Source: Halobacteriovorax sp. JY17 | GTDB lineage: Bacteria > Bdellovibrionota > Bacteriovoracia > Bacteriovoracales > Bacteriovoracaceae | Assembly (NCBI RefSeq): GCF_002753895.1 | Contig: NZ_NJER01000001.1 | Span: 1,178,910-1,242,909, forward strand | Length of the DNA: 64,000 nucleotides | Direction: 5' to 3' | In this document: positions 39,049 through 61,591 of the stretch, in pieces | Numbering within the stretch: position 1 is the first letter of the stretch | How the letters are laid out: each line of letters starts with the position of its first letter | The notes under the pieces: generated by a model | What the model was told of the DNA's origin: nothing | Databases searched by the model: none | Seen by the model: the letters and a program-made list of their open reading frames with translations, nothing else | Translations under genes and position numbers: made by a program

Positions 39049-39706
39049 CTTCCCTCCTATTGAGCAGGCCGATGAGAATGGACTGCTCGCCATAGGTGGA
39101 GACCTAGAAGTTAAGTCATTACTTAAGGCCTATCAAGGAGGAATTTTTCCATGGCCAATTTCAGAAGATTTTCCTCTTGCATGGTTTGCCCCTGATCCCC
39201 GCGGGATAATTGATTTAAAAAATTTTCATCTTCCTAAGAGTTTTAAAAAATTTCTAAGTAGGACTAAAATGACGGTGGAATTTAATAGTAATTTTGAGTC
39301 CGTTATCATGAACTGTGCAATGGCCAAGAGAAAGGAGCAGGCAGGGACTTGGATCACTGACCAAATCATAGATGGCTACATCAATCTACACCACGCAGGC
39401 TACGCCTACAGTGTCGAGACCTACCTCTACAAAGATGGTAGAAAGAGAATGGTAGGAGGTCTCTATGGAACTTGTATTGGGAACTTCTTTTCCGGCGAGT
39501 CCATGTACCATATTGAAGATAATGCTTCTAAGCTCGCCCTCTACACTCTTATCGAAAAACTAAAGACTATGGGGATAACCTGGCTCGATACTCAAATGGT
39601 TACACCTGTTGTTCAAAGTATGGGTGGAAGTGAAATTTCAAGAAATGAATTTATGGAGAGACTTTCCAAAACTGATATTGATTCGGCCAGTATTCCAAAA
39701 TTTTAA
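39035..39706 (+). CDS. aat: Leucyl/phenylalanyl-tRNA--protein transferase
   Basis: The protein is 223 aa. It transfers Leu or Phe from aminoacyl-tRNA to N-terminal Arg/Lys of proteins, feeding the ClpS/ClpAP N-degron pathway. Signature segments are FPPIEQADENGLLAIGGDL, YQGGIFPWP, WFAPDPRGI, TWITDQIIDGYINLHHAGYAYSVE, GGLYGTCIGNFFSGESMYH and WLDTQMVTP, all close to E. coli Aat. GAGG lies about 9 nt before the ATG. It overlaps the ureohydrolase gene by 14 nt and converges on the glycosyltransferase gene. Confidence 0.96.
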   Translation: MAILNFPPIEQADENGLLAIGGDLEVKSLLKAYQGGIFPWPISEDFPLAWFAPDPRGIIDLKNFHLPKSFKKFLSRTKMTVEFNSNFESVIMNCAMAKRKEQAGTWITDQIIDGYINLHHAGYAYSVETYLYKDGRKRMVGGLYGTCIGNFFSGESMYHIEDNASKLALYTLIEKLKTMGITWLDTQMVTPVVQSMGGSEISRNEFMERLSKTDIDSASIPKF

Positions 39707-40413
39707 TACTTCGTATTGAGTCCTAGACCCTTCTCATAGATTTTATTCATTAATTCATCAGAGAATTTCATATAGAAGCATAACTTCATCACAATATTTA
39801 AAATTAATTGCCTAATGACTCCATTCTTTTTAAATCTAATAGCAGACGTCTTACTTAGAAAGGGAATTATAACTGCGGGGTGTAACTTATTTAACTTCTC
39901 ACTAAACTCAGTATCTTCAAAGATCACAACTTCAGGAACCCAAGGCATTTTCTTTACAATCGACTTCTTAAAGAAAATGCAGTGATCTAAGTAAATAATT
40001 CCTCGAAGTTTTCCTCTAACCTCATTTGAATACCAAGAGGTGAACTTAAGAAGGAAGTGCTCTTCAATAAATTGATGATAAAAACCACCCCATTGAATAC
40101 TCTTATAGTTTTCAAGTAAGTACTCTAATCCTTTTGTATCAATTAGACTTCTTGGATGATGAAGTAGAATAAGTTCATGAGAAGAAGATTCAATTCCAAG
40201 ATTTAGCCTCTCCGCTCTAGAAGAAATATTTGAATGGATTAACTTTACAGGATAATTCTCTATTAACTCAAGAGTTCCATCAGAACTTCCACCATCAACA
40301 ACAATGACTTCCACATACTCTAAGTTAGAAAGAGATTTAAGACTTAACTCCAAGAGTCCTAAGCTTAACTCATTGAAGGTGGAGAAAATTATACTTATTC
40401 TATGCTTGAACAT
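39703..40413 (-). CDS. Family 2 glycosyltransferase
   Basis: The ATG at 40413 gives 236 aa and overlaps the ferredoxin gene by 14 nt; the frame is open to 40431. The N-terminal GT-A fold carries ISIIFSTFNE and VIVVDGGSSDGTLELIE (nucleotide-sugar binding). IYLDHCIFFKKS and FEDTEFSEKL supply the DxD-like and the ED acceptor-side motifs. There is no clear transmembrane helix. The product likely modifies a lipid or surface polysaccharide. It is last in the NuoB-like/NuoCD-like/ferredoxin set, but the mechanistic relation is obscure. Confidence 0.82.
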   Translation of the reverse strand: MFKHRISIIFSTFNELSLGLLELSLKSLSNLEYVEVIVVDGGSSDGTLELIENYPVKLIHSNISSRAERLNLGIESSSHELILLHHPRSLIDTKGLEYLLENYKSIQWGGFYHQFIEEHFLLKFTSWYSNEVRGKLRGIIYLDHCIFFKKSIVKKMPWVPEVVIFEDTEFSEKLNKLHPAVIIPFLSKTSAIRFKKNGVIRQLILNIVMKLCFYMKFSDELMNKIYEKGLGLNTKY

Positions 40414-40801
40414 TCTTTTGAGCCAAATCAATTATCCAAGAACTTTCCCCATGAGAAGCCAAACTTCTATAATCAGTTAAAGTTAGAACTTTAGGGTCAC
40501 ATACCTCTTCACAGAGACCGCAGAAAATACACTTTCTTACGTCAAGAAAGAGATGAGTTAATTTATCTTCTTTATTTACAAGCTCAAAACTATCCGTGGG
40601 ACAAATTGTTCTACAATCATTGCACCCATGACAACTTGAAGTTGAACTTAATTCAGGAAGACCTCTTTCTCTCTCTTCTTTTTCAACTTTAGATTTTCTC
40701 TTAAGAATAAATTTTAGAGAAGCAAGAGTATAGGCACGCAAGGACTTTGATATCGCTCTAGTCGTACTAATTGATTTATATAATTCACGCTCAAGAATCA
40801 T
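40400..40801 (-). CDS. Two-[4Fe-4S] ferredoxin-like subunit (NuoI/HyfH type)
   Basis: The protein is 133 aa. Two cluster motifs are present: SCHGCNDCRTICP (CxxCxxCxxxCP) and KCIFCGLCEEVCD (CxxCxxCxxxC), spaced about 30 residues apart, as in complex I NuoI and group-4 hydrogenase ferredoxin subunits. The N-terminal 50 residues are basic, with a helix like that which attaches NuoI to the membrane arm. It overlaps the NuoCD-like gene by 4 nt (ATGA), so the stoichiometry is probably coupled. It would pass electrons to the NuoB-like N2 cluster. Confidence 0.88.
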   Translation of the reverse strand: MILERELYKSISTTRAISKSLRAYTLASLKFILKRKSKVEKEERERGLPELSSTSSCHGCNDCRTICPTDSFELVNKEDKLTHLFLDVRKCIFCGLCEEVCDPKVLTLTDYRSLASHGESSWIIDLAQKNVQA

Positions 40802-42414
40802 CTATCCATCTCCCCGGCCACAATATTCATTGATGATAATGAAATCATACAATCATCTAATCTTGATCCAGGCAGCATTCTAGAAAATGCCTGAACAGAG
40901 AAGAAAGAAGGAGACTTAATTTTTACCCTATAAGGTTTATTACTTGAATCTGATTCGATATAGAAACCAAGTTCGCCATTGACCGCTTCAGACATTGAAT
41001 AAATACTAGACGTCTTTGGTGCAAATGTTAAAAGCCCAAGATTAAGAGCGCTTTTTTCAACTCTGAGCTTTCCTGCTGGTAAACTATCAAGGACCTGTGA
41101 AATAATTTTTAAAGATTGCCTCATTTCTTCGACACGAACAAGGAAGCGATCATAACTATCACCATTTATCCCCAGAGGTATTTCAAAATCTACATCCTCA
41201 TAGAAGTAATAAGGACTAACTTTTCTAATATCATAATTTACGCCACAAGATCTTAGGTTTGGTCCCGTCACTCCAAGGTCAATTGCTTCATAAGCGTTTA
41301 ATAAAGATGTTTGCAAACGATCTTTCCAGAAGTTTGCTCTATTTAAATGATAAGAAAGATCATTACAAAGAGAATGTATTTCCTTTAACTCGTCAAGGCA
41401 GTCATTACTCCAACCAAGAGGTTGCTTAAAGTTTAATCCACCAATACAACTTAAGTGATTCCCCTTAGCTGAACCATTTAAGGCAAGAAAGAGCTTACTG
41501 ACTTTATCAACTATTCGAAGAGAAATTTGAACTCCTTCAAAAATCCCTGTTGCTTTAATCATTGAGGCAATACAATGTGAGTGATCAGAGATTCGAGCAA
41601 GCTCACAAATGACCATTCTAAAGGCCTTTGCTTTTTCAGGAATATCAATTCCGGCTAAGGACTCCACAGCTTTACACCATCCGACAGAGTTAGCGGCACT
41701 TGAGAAGAAGTTTAGCTTATCAGTAACTGTAGAAATTTGCCCATAGAGCATACTTTCACAACTCTTCTCCACTCCACGGTGTAAAAAACCAATATCTATT
41801 TTGGAGCGAAGTATGAAGTCTCCCTCGACTTCAAAGTTCATTTTCATTGCGCCTTTTAGGCCGGGGTGAATAGGTCCAATAGAAACTTCATCTAAGAGGT
41901 TTTCTTTAAACTTAGGAATTCCTAAATTCTTTTCGAATACTTCTTCAGCAAAATCAAAATTTTCATCAATAGAAAGTTCAAAGTCTTTTCTAAGAGGAAA
42001 TCCAATGATATTTTTAGGAGTGAGTAATCTCTGCTCACTCTTTTCTCCAAAAGATATACCAAACATTTCCCAAACTTCTCGCTCACACCAAAGAGCATTC
42101 GTCCAAAGAGTAGAAGCACTCGGAAGAATTTCATTTCTATCAATATTTAAGTTTATAAGAACTTGCAGTCTAAAATGCTCTTCCATATTAAGTAGAATAT
42201 AACTTAATTGAAATCTCTTATCTGACGCCTCTATACTCTTCTTAGAATTATCTAAACCTACAATATCTAAGAGCATAATGAAGCCAAAGTTGTCTCGGAG
42301 TTTCTTTAAAGTTCCTTTAAGGTCCTTAGACTCGTCCACAATCAGAGTATTTAAATCACTCTTTATCGTTAGTTTATTTAAGAATGCGGTGGAAAGTTCA
42401 TTATGAATTGTCAC
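40798..42414 (-). CDS. Fused NuoC-NuoD-like subunit (complex I/group-4 hydrogenase-related)
   Basis: The protein is 538 aa. Residues ~70-145 are NuoC-like (WCEREVWEMFGISF, LLTPKNIIGFPLRKDF). Residues ~175-538 are NuoD-like (GPIHPGLKGAMK, IGFLHRGVEKSCESMLYGQ, VESLAGIDIPEKA, DLGVTGPNLRSCGVNYDIRK, PYYFYEDVDFEIPLG and the terminal NIVAGEMDR). There is no pair of CxxC motifs for a NiFe site (only C219 and C522), so it is not a NiFe hydrogenase. The GPxHPxxHG motif of NuoD has Lys (K187) instead of the second His, which in complex I contacts the quinone. The start is GTG 42414, overlapping the NuoB-like gene by 14 nt. Confidence 0.85.
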   Translation of the reverse strand: MTIHNELSTAFLNKLTIKSDLNTLIVDESKDLKGTLKKLRDNFGFIMLLDIVGLDNSKKSIEASDKRFQLSYILLNMEEHFRLQVLINLNIDRNEILPSASTLWTNALWCEREVWEMFGISFGEKSEQRLLTPKNIIGFPLRKDFELSIDENFDFAEEVFEKNLGIPKFKENLLDEVSIGPIHPGLKGAMKMNFEVEGDFILRSKIDIGFLHRGVEKSCESMLYGQISTVTDKLNFFSSAANSVGWCKAVESLAGIDIPEKAKAFRMVICELARISDHSHCIASMIKATGIFEGVQISLRIVDKVSKLFLALNGSAKGNHLSCIGGLNFKQPLGWSNDCLDELKEIHSLCNDLSYHLNRANFWKDRLQTSLLNAYEAIDLGVTGPNLRSCGVNYDIRKVSPYYFYEDVDFEIPLGINGDSYDRFLVRVEEMRQSLKIISQVLDSLPAGKLRVEKSALNLGLLTFAPKTSSIYSMSEAVNGELGFYIESDSSNKPYRVKIKSPSFFSVQAFSRMLPGSRLDDCMISLSSMNIVAGEMDR

Positions 42415-42922
42415 AGGCCATAACTCCTCTTCTCATTCTCTCTTTTAATAATTCCATTCCATGTGCAATTTCTTTTGGACCAGGAGGACATCCAGGAATA
42501 AAAATATCAACAGGAATATCTTTTGAGACGTCTGAAACAATATTATAAGAAGAGAATGGTCCTCCACTCATTGGACATGCACCAATGACAACAACCCACT
42601 TCTTCTTTGGCATTTCGTGGTAAATACTCTTTAAGATCGGATACATTTTCAAATTTACAGATCCACTTATAATGAGCAGGTCACTATTTTGAGCTTCTAA
42701 TTTTTCAGGAAAGAAGTTGTCTTCGGGATATTGATCATCAAAAATTGAATAGTACTCACTTGAACAGCAGGCCGTTGCAAAAGTGAACGGAACCGTGGAG
42801 TGGGTATTCACCCAATTGTTAAATTTATTTAAAAATGTATCAGCACTTGTGGTTAACGCAAGACTATCAATTCCCGTTGGGGATTGAACCTTATCAAACC
42901 TTAGCTCAGGCCTCTTTGCCAT
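42401..42922 (-). CDS. NuoB-like [4Fe-4S] N2-cluster subunit
   Basis: The protein is 173 aa. All cluster ligands of NuoB are present: adjacent CC in FATACCSSEYY, Cys in VIGACPMSGGPF, and Cys in FIPGCPPGPKE. SSYNIVSDVSKDIPVDIFIPGCPP follows the NuoB pattern closely. This is the subunit that hands electrons to quinone (complex I) or to the NiFe site (group-4 hydrogenase). AAGGAG precedes the ATG at 42922. It is the first gene of the NuoB/NuoCD/ferredoxin unit; no NuoA, H, J-N, E, F or G homologue is next to it. Confidence 0.9.
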   Translation of the reverse strand: MAKRPELRFDKVQSPTGIDSLALTTSADTFLNKFNNWVNTHSTVPFTFATACCSSEYYSIFDDQYPEDNFFPEKLEAQNSDLLIISGSVNLKMYPILKSIYHEMPKKKWVVVIGACPMSGGPFSSYNIVSDVSKDIPVDIFIPGCPPGPKEIAHGMELLKERMRRGVMACDNS

Positions 42923-42982: not shown

Positions 42983-44503
42983 CTATCTGACGATTATATC
43001 CCTTGAACCTTTTCTGTAATTTTTGAAGTTCTTCCAATTAACGTCCTGCGGGAAAATCGGTAACTCTTCGCGTCTTTTTTGATCGCAAATGTAACCGTCG
43101 CCTAAATCGTGAATCCAAGTATACATTTTCTGGTGACTTGCCCCACCTCCATGATCGTATTGAATAAAGCGGAAGTGTTCTTGGAATGAGCTACTAAGTC
43201 CTGCTTGAATATTGATACTTGTATCAAAAGCAGAATCCAGTTCTGAGCTTGTACAAGACCTCATTCTCTTTTTAAATGAATAGAGCCTCTTTCCCGAAGT
43301 CGTTATAGGATTTTTGATCCAGGCCCGGCCAGAACAAGAGTAAATATAGCCAGAGTCTTCAGTGTTAAAGAAAGAAGTCAGGTAGACAAAGAACCACATT
43401 CTCTCTTTATCTGCATTGATGCTCGTATCTCTAACAAATTGCTGACAAGTTTTGTAGCGATCCTTATATTTCTCGTAGAAGTTTTTAAAAAATACAGAGA
43501 AATCACTTATCTCTAATTCTTTCTGTCGAACTTCGCTTCTGGGAGCTTCAGTTCCTTCGGCACTTAAGACATTTCCTGAAAATGTATCTAACTTGGCGAC
43601 AACTTTCTTTCTATTTACTGGCGCAAGTTTCTTTCCAGCCGATTTTGCTTCACCATTCTTTCTAATGGCCTTAATATTATTCCATATGTGGTCGTAGAGT
43701 GCATGACAACTATTTCTAACAGTTTTCATCTCATCAAACTTAAAAAGATGCCCCTTATCCAAAGCAATTTTAAAAGCCTCTCTTGGCCCAATATTTCCCA
43801 CAATACGGTAACTTGGTTTTGGAACACTTCCTGACAATTTACGCCCATTAGAGTTTTGAATAAAGGCCACGGCTTCATCCCAGTTAACGACCTTTTTTAA
43901 TTGGTTAAGATTTTTAACTTTTTTAAACTCGGGGTCTGAAGGATTCACGGCCATTAAAAGTAACCTCGACTGCCATTTATTATAACCTCTACAAGGATAG
44001 GTCGTGCAATACTGCAAGAGAACTCCTCCTATAACTCGAACTCTCTGAGATCTAGTTGGAGTAACTTCATACTTTTGGAAGTACCTCTCTTTTCCAAAAA
44101 CCACAATCTTCTGTGGCGTTCCCAATTGATCCAATAATCTTGGTACAAAACCCTCCGAATAAGGAGGTCTATAAATTGTCCCAGAGTACTTCTTCCAAAC
44201 ATCTTCCTGATCACAGAAATTATGAGAGCGGTACAATTTCCCTGATCGTAAATCAATTTCATATTTACTCAGTGAGCCAATAGGCGTTGTTCTTATAAAG
44301 TTGATTGAGTTATCTGTCTCCGAAGCAAATGGCACTAAATCAAAGAATGGGTGAATGAGAAACTCTCCATCAAAGCTTCGATCATTATAAATTTTCTCTG
44401 TTGCCATCCATGAAGGCTTTGCAATAACTGGAGTTGCTTGTTGAGTACGTTTAGCACAACTAACAATGAGACTGAGTAGACAGAGAATTAGTGCCTTTTT
44501 CAT
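42983..44503 (-). CDS. Large lipoprotein of unknown function
   Basis: The protein is 506 aa. Its N-terminus MKKALILCLLSLIVSCAKR is a lipoprotein signal with lipobox IVSC. The mature protein is beta-rich and contains many Cys (NFCDQ, YCTTYPC, NSCHALY, KTCQQFV, YSCSGRA, RSCTSS, YICDQ), suggesting disulfides outside the cytoplasm. It has no repeats, enzyme motif or recognised family. It lies about 60 nt upstream of the NuoB-like gene on the same strand, without overlap. Bases 44504-44641 form the shared upstream region with the tRNA-Leu gene. Confidence 0.7.
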   Translation of the reverse strand: MKKALILCLLSLIVSCAKRTQQATPVIAKPSWMATEKIYNDRSFDGEFLIHPFFDLVPFASETDNSINFIRTTPIGSLSKYEIDLRSGKLYRSHNFCDQEDVWKKYSGTIYRPPYSEGFVPRLLDQLGTPQKIVVFGKERYFQKYEVTPTRSQRVRVIGGVLLQYCTTYPCRGYNKWQSRLLLMAVNPSDPEFKKVKNLNQLKKVVNWDEAVAFIQNSNGRKLSGSVPKPSYRIVGNIGPREAFKIALDKGHLFKFDEMKTVRNSCHALYDHIWNNIKAIRKNGEAKSAGKKLAPVNRKKVVAKLDTFSGNVLSAEGTEAPRSEVRQKELEISDFSVFFKNFYEKYKDRYKTCQQFVRDTSINADKERMWFFVYLTSFFNTEDSGYIYSCSGRAWIKNPITTSGKRLYSFKKRMRSCTSSELDSAFDTSINIQAGLSSSFQEHFRFIQYDHGGGASHQKMYTWIHDLGDGYICDQKRREELPIFPQDVNWKNFKNYRKGSRDIIVR

Positions 44504-57515: not shown

Positions 57516-57755
57516 CTATTGCACCAATGTTAGAGTAACACTTGAGTCTTTCACTTCAAGCTTTAAGCAATCGTCCTTCTGTTCAGGAGCCTTATCGCAC
57601 TCCTCTTTCTTTTCACAGAACATACAATCCTCGCCCATTACATTACCAAGACCTCCACAAGATCCTTTGAGTTTTCTATTGCTAAAGATTACTCCTACGG
57701 CCATTCCTGCGATTGCTGCTAACATAACGACTAATGATACTAAAAACATCTTCAT
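57516..57755 (-). CDS. nqrM: NqrM, Na+-NQR maturation protein
   Basis: The protein is 79 aa. One N-terminal membrane helix (FLVSLVVMLAAIAGMAVGVIF) is followed by KLKGSCGGLGNVMGEDCMFCEKKEECD, the Cys-rich motif of the NqrM (DUF539) family. NqrM delivers iron for the unusual Fe site between NqrD and NqrE in the Na+-translocating NADH:quinone reductase. Its tail (residues 60-79) is longer than in other examples. It starts 9 nt after apbE, which flavinylates Nqr subunits, so the pair is a maturation module. The nqrABCDEF genes are not within the window. Confidence 0.88.
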   Translation of the reverse strand: MKMFLVSLVVMLAAIAGMAVGVIFSNRKLKGSCGGLGNVMGEDCMFCEKKEECDKAPEQKDDCLKLEVKDSSVTLTLVQ

Positions 57756-60109: not shown

Positions 60110-61591
60110 CTAATACTGAATACTGCGAGCAATATCTTTTAATGGCATATAGTTAATCCCCTTTACGAGGGCACTTCTCTCTGCTTCATGCAAATTCTGC
60201 AGGAAGTCTTTATTCATTCTTATAAGCTTCTCTTCTTTAAAGTTATAATTCGTATTATAAAGGCACGTTACATTCGTAGGCTTAAAGAAAAGAAGTTGAG
60301 ACATACGGTACTTTGTTTGATCAACTGCTGAAACTAATTTCTTTCTACTAAAGTAACTCATTCCTTTTGTAGGAGCAGTGTGACGAATACGAAGAGGTAC
60401 TTTTTGAATATTCATTGCACCATAATTATAATGATCCAGAGAGTGAGCAATAGTTACGTCCCAAATAAAGTAGGAAACAGTATCAACGAGATTTCCTTCT
60501 TCAAAAATCTCTTTACCATCAGGAAAGTTAGGAACTAAGGGAGAAATATAATTTGCCCAATTTTCGATGGCCCTATCTCCACACTTCACATCAGCAAGTA
60601 CTTCGCTAACGAAATCATGAATTGTATCATAGTAGAGATTTAAGAAATCACCATACTCTGAATAAATCTTTCTTGGACGTCTGTAAAATTGATATCCAGT
60701 ATAAGATTTATTTCCAATCATCCCTTTGTATCCACAAACAAGTAACTCTCTCAATCCATCATATGGTCCAGGATAGGGAGCGTAAGGCATCCACCACTTT
60801 GATTGAAGAAGTGAGGTCTTATACGTCAACACTGCATTCTCTAATTGAAGAGTGAAACGTAAGTGGGGGTAGAGTAATTTAAAGAGAATATGCTCTTTTG
60901 GTAAAGCCGTTTTAGTAATGGCGTTTATAGAGTCTAGAGGAAAATGTAAACTTGGATGCTCTACTAATGTGGCACACAGAGCTGCCCCCTGGAGAACAAA
61001 GTATTTTGCGAGCTCCCACCCCTCTCCATCTTTAGGAGTAAAAATTTCTTTAGAGTCATCAATGTAAATACATTTTACAACATACTTACCATCTCGTAAT
61101 TCGAGTAAGGTTTTAGAAGGTGAAACAAATATACCTTCAAATGTATCGACCACCTCAACAGGAGATAGGTCAGTAATTAAGTAAGTTTCATCTTCGTTTA
61201 TATAGTCTTTAAAATGATTTAAATCACTTTTATCAAGTTGATGAGATAAGAACTTACTCATCATTGACTTAGTTAAGTAAGAATTAAATTCCTTATCGCT
61301 AACACTCACTAGCCCTCTATTAAAAAGATAATATATGTAGATGAAAGGTGTTAAGAGTAGAGTTACAACATAGCGTAGACCAACAAATATCCACCAGTCT
61401 AAAATTTCTCTAAGTGGTATTTTTAAAACAGCAGGAGACTCCCCAAAAGGATGATCAGGAGAAGGTTGAGGCCAAGGCCCCTTTCTTCCATACAAGAAGT
61501 CTTTAGGTCTGTAAGAGAGAATTTCCTTCTCTCTGTGATTTAGACAAGTCGTTGTACCTTTCCAAAAAGAAGAGTAATTTGTTTTTCTCAC
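60110..61591 (-). CDS. Lipoxygenase-family protein with N-terminal hydrophobic segment
   Basis: The protein is 493 aa (GTG start, AGG 6 nt upstream). The lipoxygenase core is recognised by WELAKYFVLQGAALCATLVEH, H212-x-x-x-H216, then 17 residues to HILFKLLYPHLRFTLQLENAVL (the IHPIFKLL-PHLRYTLEIN segment of known enzymes). DVTIAHSLDHYNYGAM supplies H383-x-x-x-H387 (third and fourth ligands). The usual iron enzymes have H-x4-H first; here it is H-x3-H, as in fungal Mn-lipoxygenases. The chain ends in Tyr rather than the metal-ligating Ile/Val. Residues 64-90 are hydrophobic and could anchor it to membrane. It lies 7 nt after two YbjQ-like genes. Confidence 0.75.
   Translation of the reverse strand: MRKTNYSSFWKGTTTCLNHREKEILSYRPKDFLYGRKGPWPQPSPDHPFGESPAVLKIPLREILDWWIFVGLRYVVTLLLTPFIYIYYLFNRGLVSVSDKEFNSYLTKSMMSKFLSHQLDKSDLNHFKDYINEDETYLITDLSPVEVVDTFEGIFVSPSKTLLELRDGKYVVKCIYIDDSKEIFTPKDGEGWELAKYFVLQGAALCATLVEHPSLHFPLDSINAITKTALPKEHILFKLLYPHLRFTLQLENAVLTYKTSLLQSKWWMPYAPYPGPYDGLRELLVCGYKGMIGNKSYTGYQFYRRPRKIYSEYGDFLNLYYDTIHDFVSEVLADVKCGDRAIENWANYISPLVPNFPDGKEIFEEGNLVDTVSYFIWDVTIAHSLDHYNYGAMNIQKVPLRIRHTAPTKGMSYFSRKKLVSAVDQTKYRMSQLLFFKPTNVTCLYNTNYNFKEEKLIRMNKDFLQNLHEAERSALVKGINYMPLKDIARSIQY

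Follow-up and report, generated by a model that had tools for sequence, protein, structure and literature searches.

The window, a stretch of 64,000 nucleotides from the marine predator Halobacteriovorax sp. JY17 (C1:1178910-1242909 in a genome of 3.47 Mb and 5 contigs), contains a cassette of complex I-like genes. We consider it likely that this cassette belongs to a second complex I in which both the quinone site and the pumping mechanism have been lost; this confidence covers the identity of the complex together with its loss of coupling. The analysis demonstrated descent from complex I, with the Fe-S ligands kept and the residues of quinone chemistry and pumping absent. The cassette probably serves something other than ordinary respiration.

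Genes of the cassette

Table 1. Coordinates of the features analysed. Positions without a prefix are those of the window; other positions are given on contigs (C) or loci (L).
Feature	Position	Strand	Length	Description
Lipoprotein	42983..44503	-	506 aa	Cassette gene 1, upstream of NuoB'
NuoB'	42401..42922	-	173 aa	NuoB/PSST paralogue; Pfam Oxidored_q6 3.6e-21
NuoCD'	40798..42414	-	538 aa	NuoC-NuoD fusion; Complex1_30kDa 3.1e-27, Complex1_49kDa 3.4e-62
NuoI'	40400..40801	-	133 aa	Two-[4Fe-4S] ferredoxin, shortened NuoI paralogue; Pfam Fer4 domains
Family-2 glycosyltransferase	39703..40431	-		Overlaps NuoI'; downstream of the cassette; non-core, lineage-specific addition
Putative NqrM	57516-57755			Label of the first-pass annotation
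Weak lipoxygenase match	60110-61591			PF00305, E 7e-4, under cut-off
Canonical nuoB, C, D, I	C1:1703k			Outside the window
Canonical nuoAHJKLMN	C2:26.8-34.5k			Other contig than the cassette
Block A'-N'	G000:C2:34532-39819		107, 298, 155, 93, 506, 265, 334 aa	Seven ORFs of the window genome
TPR-rich protein	G000:C2:39920-43081 (= L012:6921-10082)		~1050 aa	Closes the nuo membrane operon
Desaturase-like ORF	L166:9913-10995
Desaturase-like ORF	L165:4966-6072			Pfam FA_desaturase
Desaturase-like ORF	L120:4469-5545
Desaturase-like ORF	L156:9186-10331			Pfam FA_desaturase

The ORFs and their Pfam matches (Table 1) bear out the coupled NuoB-like, NuoCD-fusion and ferredoxin genes that the first-pass annotation had described at 40400-42922, and the lipoprotein and glycosyltransferase named there as neighbours are both present. 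NuoB' and NuoCD' overlap by 14 nt and NuoCD' and NuoI' by 4 nt; because of these overlaps the three ORFs are probably translationally coupled. NuoI is the top NCBIfam match of NuoI', with a score under the cut-off. Among the cassettes read, the glycosyltransferase was seen beside NuoI' only in the window's genus and in G003. It also has a sub-cut-off likeness to TIGR04283 (arsenosugar/mftF-like).

Iron-sulfur ligands and quinone site

All four N2 Cys are present in NuoB' (4/4), as had been noted before, and all eight Cys of the two clusters are present in NuoI' (8/8, 2 x CxxCxxCxxxCP). The ligands retained in the window's genus are those of three [4Fe-4S] clusters, two in NuoI' and N2 in NuoB', and all 12 of these Cys are invariant in five Halobacteriovorax species while the remainder of the sequence diverges.

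The quinone site is altered. In the NuoCD' protein of the window, K187, F236 and A288 replace the His, Tyr and Asp of NuoD, which we take to be the quinone proton-donor triad of complex I. The first-pass annotation was right that the second His of the HPxTHG motif is Lys (K187), and it overlooked the replacement of Tyr and Asp. These residues of the NuoD quinone triad are also given in PMC12890310, where complex I with a single mutation of the His, Tyr or Asp stays active; the residue changes alone are therefore no proof of lost quinone reduction. The second copies of group g4 retain all three triad residues. There is no CxxC pair in NuoCD', compared with two in HycE, in agreement with the earlier view that it is not a hydrogenase.

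A membrane block behind nuoN

The first-pass annotation described the cassette as an orphan without membrane subunits. This has to be revised. On another contig, adjoining the canonical nuo operon, is a block of seven ORFs (A', H', J', K', L', M' and N') that appears to be the membrane arm belonging to the cassette, as judged from synteny, a divergence series, co-occurrence and one predicted fold. The block lies directly after canonical nuoN, its ORFs are co-directional and mostly overlapping, and the TPR gene follows. L', M' and N' are much shortened compared with their complex I counterparts. Pfam and NCBIfam searches with the seven ORFs of the window genome gave nothing beyond a match of K' to PF00420 (NuoK) at E 0.04.

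Seven ORFs were present in 38/38 complete loci (33 genomes and 5 added in a later prediction test), located behind canonical nuoN or its vacated place, and this count was repeated in separately named genome records; the contigs of G064 and G069 stop inside L'. The TPR gene directly follows nuoN in the 12 genomes without the block. Across the order this gene closes the nuo membrane operon, with the second block present or absent.

The identity of the ORFs can be followed through a series of genomes. In G004, G005, G010, G015, G016 and G056 the block is a plain second set of NuoA, H, J, K, L, M and N, in that order (K' of G056 was assigned by position). The PF00146 scores of H' are ~350-360 bits in g4, 312 in G056, 138 in G063, 120 in G077, 107 in G061, 99 in G076, 47 in G055, 35 in G126/127 and 21 in G002, and there is no match in Halobacteriovorax. 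In profile-profile comparisons, g4 and the intermediate groups matched the correct canonical subunit, and the Halobacteriovorax profiles best matched their intermediate-group counterparts on the diagonal in 6/7 cases, weakly. When Halobacteriovorax was compared directly with the canonical subunits, no signal was obtained except K' at 16%. For Halobacteriovorax, we infer which ORFs are J', M' and N' from position and the divergence series.

An AF2 model of H' from the closest relative, UBA3083, was obtained from an input of 16 strongly divergent sequences and had a pLDDT of 62.5 and a pTM of 0.62. With this model, the top 50 rows of VIA-align were all NuoH/ND1-type chains (Z 14.7-16.1 over about 211-252 residues); Foldseek also ranked NuoH first, but with no E below 0.1. 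The predicted structure thus supports a NuoH fold for H' of the closest relative. The AF2 model of L' had a pLDDT of 47 and was unusable.

Residues of the pumping mechanism are missing from the block. Of ten polar residues that are invariant in the TMH5-6 loop of NuoH, H' retains none, and the NuoK Glu pair is lost in K', where E36 and E73 are replaced by T and S. The charged-axis residues of L', M' and N' are largely gone, as read from alignments that are unreliable for the window's genus. The cassette would assemble with the A'-N' block, and this assembly would not pump.

Descent of the NuoD part and selection

In a NuoD tree rooted with HycE as the only outgroup (Ehr sequences were not in the tree), all second-copy D domains, that of the window included, form one clade with a support of 100. 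The D domains of the intact second copies from related genera fall in it too. The clade adjoins a third type of complex I, seen in a few genomes (support 98), inside complex I relative to HycE, and the D of the third type is its closest sister. The third type occurs in L191, L192 and L193 (G104, G062 and G060) and has its own C and D and a B 55-58% identical to canonical NuoB. Among solved structures, the best relatives of NuoCD' were NuoCD chains, at 220-232 bits versus 104-105 for Mbh and formate hydrogenlyase.

These results bear on the earlier suggestion of an Ehr-type (energy-converting hydrogenase-related) complex. The lack of NiFe Cys and of an NADH module would suit such a complex, but D' groups with the intact copies of complex I, away from HycE, and the complex I scores are twice those of Mbh and FHL. 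We find an Ehr-type complex hardly credible. The first-pass annotation had named two observations that would speak against its reading: a NuoD part that clusters within complex I, and a cassette that is the missing part of a canonical nuo operon. The former is what we observed. The latter is not the case, because B, C, D and I of the canonical complex are encoded separately.

Both the cassette and the block show signs of purifying selection. Compared with the nearest species, dN/dS was 0.05 for B', 0.10 for CD' and 0.15 for I', rough values since dS is near saturation. With dS likewise near saturation, it was 0.10-0.16 for A', H', J' and K', 0.2-0.3 for L', M' and N' where measurable, and 0.02-0.07 for the canonical subunits. 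The second copy evolves faster than the canonical copy, and its membrane arm faster than its peripheral arm. A decaying relic, that is, a second complex I useless since the ancestor and slowly degrading in every lineage, is favoured by such fast evolution and by the way in which different genera have independently, step by step, lost E-F-G, Cys, antiporter residues and the whole arm. We regard a relic as improbable in view of a dN/dS well below 1, of seven membrane ORFs that have stayed open in every complete locus at order-wide divergence, and of three genera that retain the degenerate block after losing the canonical arm.

Cassette and block across the Bacteriovoracales

The usual neighbours of the cassette are aat, an arginase-like gene, a D-2-hydroxyacid dehydrogenase gene and a map-like gene. 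In g4 and G069 the cassette has the order lipo-B-CD-E-F-G-I, with genuine NuoE and NuoF and a shortened NuoG. E, F and G have decayed to remnants in G112/G113 and are absent from most other cassettes; in G022, G047 and G060 the cassette is cut to the lipoprotein and CD.

The presence of the block, predicted beforehand from the state of the cassette, was upheld in 9/9 testable genomes: a cassette without a desaturase-like gene was accompanied by the block (5/5), and where there was no cassette there was no block (4/4). In a third group of genomes, with the desaturase-like gene behind NuoI', the block is absent or has only five ORFs; for this group the cassettes read were those of G104, G114 and G115, a subset of the congeners. 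Ignoring kinship between genomes, B' and CD' decay together with a rho of 0.74, and the cassette decays with K', J', M' and L' of the membrane arm with a rho of 0.5-0.6.

The desaturase-like gene encodes a membrane protein of ~360 aa with desaturase-type His boxes and lies after NuoI' or the lipoprotein, where the block is absent or has five ORFs (Table 1). As a candidate electron acceptor it was set aside; most such genomes have B', and often I', without cluster Cys. L197 and L198 (G115 and G117) are intermediate: A', H', J', K' and an ORF of 212-214 aa lie behind nuoN, and M' and N' are gone.

In the window genome, a PF01512 profile search of the whole genome gave no match for NuoF, and so neither complex I has its own NADH module. 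ApbE lies inside the window and nqrB ~3.9 kb beyond its end, consistent with the Na+-NQR suggested earlier. The genome thus has a canonical membrane arm and no NuoF for either complex, and both facts would fit a docking of B'CD'I', as another peripheral arm, on canonical NuoAHJKLMN, the A'-N' block being unrelated. We judge this very improbable. Cassette and block co-occur, and the canonical arm comes with conserved B, C, D and I subunits of its own. Moreover, in G061, G063, G126 and G127 (three genera) the canonical membrane arm is gone at the locus and the cassette is kept with the degenerate block.

Proposed function

An ancestor would have had an ordinary second complex I, made up of B-CD-E-F-G-I and A-H-J-K-L-M-N, which survives in some genera. 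The cassette would be the Q-module, the connecting part, of the peripheral arm of this second complex I, with A'H'J'K'L'M'N' supplied in trans. In Halobacteriovorax the NADH module, the quinone proton donors, the NuoH quinone/E-channel loop residues and the proton-path residues have been lost, whereas the NuoD scaffold and the Cys ligands of three [4Fe-4S] clusters are retained. A soluble donor might dock at the former position of NuoEFG; one-electron transfer to N2, and from there to an acceptor other than a quinone in the deep tunnel, would take place without proton pumping. For Halobacteriovorax we tentatively favor a non-pumping role, as an Fe-S relay or redox sensor anchored in the membrane, although we would put its chances below even. 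The unusual electron-transfer module of the first-pass annotation is plausible in this respect.

Outside the genus the ligands are not always kept. The N2 Cys are gone in G076/77/78, G062, G021, G119, G024, G019, G002, G003, G104, G028 and G115; the NuoI' Cys are gone in G062, G021, G053 and G024 and mostly gone in G104, with the genes still present. The loss of Fe-S Cys in several genera argues against electron transfer as a function common to the whole family. The structural motifs of NuoD' (GYxHRG, ExxRIxDH, GPxLRxxG, NGELGF) persist longer than the catalytic residues. Both observations favor a non-redox structural or regulatory membrane scaffold, perhaps acting with the lipoprotein, in which the Halobacteriovorax clusters are kept for fold stability. 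This is somewhat unlikely in itself, the 12 invariant Cys amid divergence in five Halobacteriovorax species speaking against it; owing to the repeated ligand loss elsewhere, it is nearly as likely as the relay or sensor. Beyond the genus, it is possible, if doubtful, that complex I was converted throughout the order to a non-catalytic membrane assembly with a new, non-respiratory purpose; the redox ligands, the quinone site and the pump residues would be lost in one lineage after another, and the assembly, or at least its NuoD core, would persist.

Comparison with known systems

By descent, the B, CD, I, A, H, J, K, L, M and N described here correspond to complex I (NDH-1, in the 11-subunit form without NuoEFG), with which they share the gene order of the membrane arm and, in the window's genus, the ligand sets of N2 and the two NuoI clusters. 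Unlike NDH-1, they have lost the quinone donors, the acidic loop of NuoH, the NuoK Glu and the antiporter residues; L', M' and N' are much shortened, and the membrane subunits are unrecognisable by sequence. The cassette and block of the intact second complex I of g4 (e.g. G004, G016) are orthologous and occupy the same two positions, but this enzyme retains NuoE, NuoF, a shortened NuoG and the quinone and pump residues, all of which the window's genus is without. Ehr and other group-4 hydrogenase relatives (Mbx, Ehr; PMC6349859) are likewise complex I-superfamily assemblies minus an active-site ligand set; those derive from hydrogenases, whereas D' sits in the complex I clade. In a literature search, in which subscription journals were mostly out of reach, we found no description of a second divergent complex I, and complex I is not mentioned in the genome papers on predatory bacteria that were searched.

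The order offers a natural dissection of complex I. At fixed gene positions it spans an intact second enzyme and stripped versions minus the NADH module, the quinone site, the pump residues, the Fe-S ligands or the membrane arm, and comparison of these steps shows which parts are possibly required for the complex to assemble and which serve coupling alone. Should the hollow form have a function, the scaffold of complex I would be used there for something other than energy conversion. The results also suggest that sequence searches have overlooked complex I subunits in predatory bacteria, where seven of them go under the name of 'hypothetical membrane proteins'.

Lipoprotein at the head of the cassette

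The lipoprotein lies upstream of B'/CD' at nearly all loci read. Its family was found in 111/369 genomes of the phylum, 110 of them within the Bacteriovoracales, and has 8 further invariant Cys beyond the lipobox Cys. A Pfam search gave no match, and a search of its profile against the PDB gave weak matches (E 0.02-0.6), all of them (8/8) to inorganic pyrophosphatases. In the co-decay comparison of cassette and membrane arm the lipoprotein had a rho of 0.1, kinship between genomes again being ignored, and in G107, G110 and G111 the lipoprotein persists without the rest of the complex I cassette.
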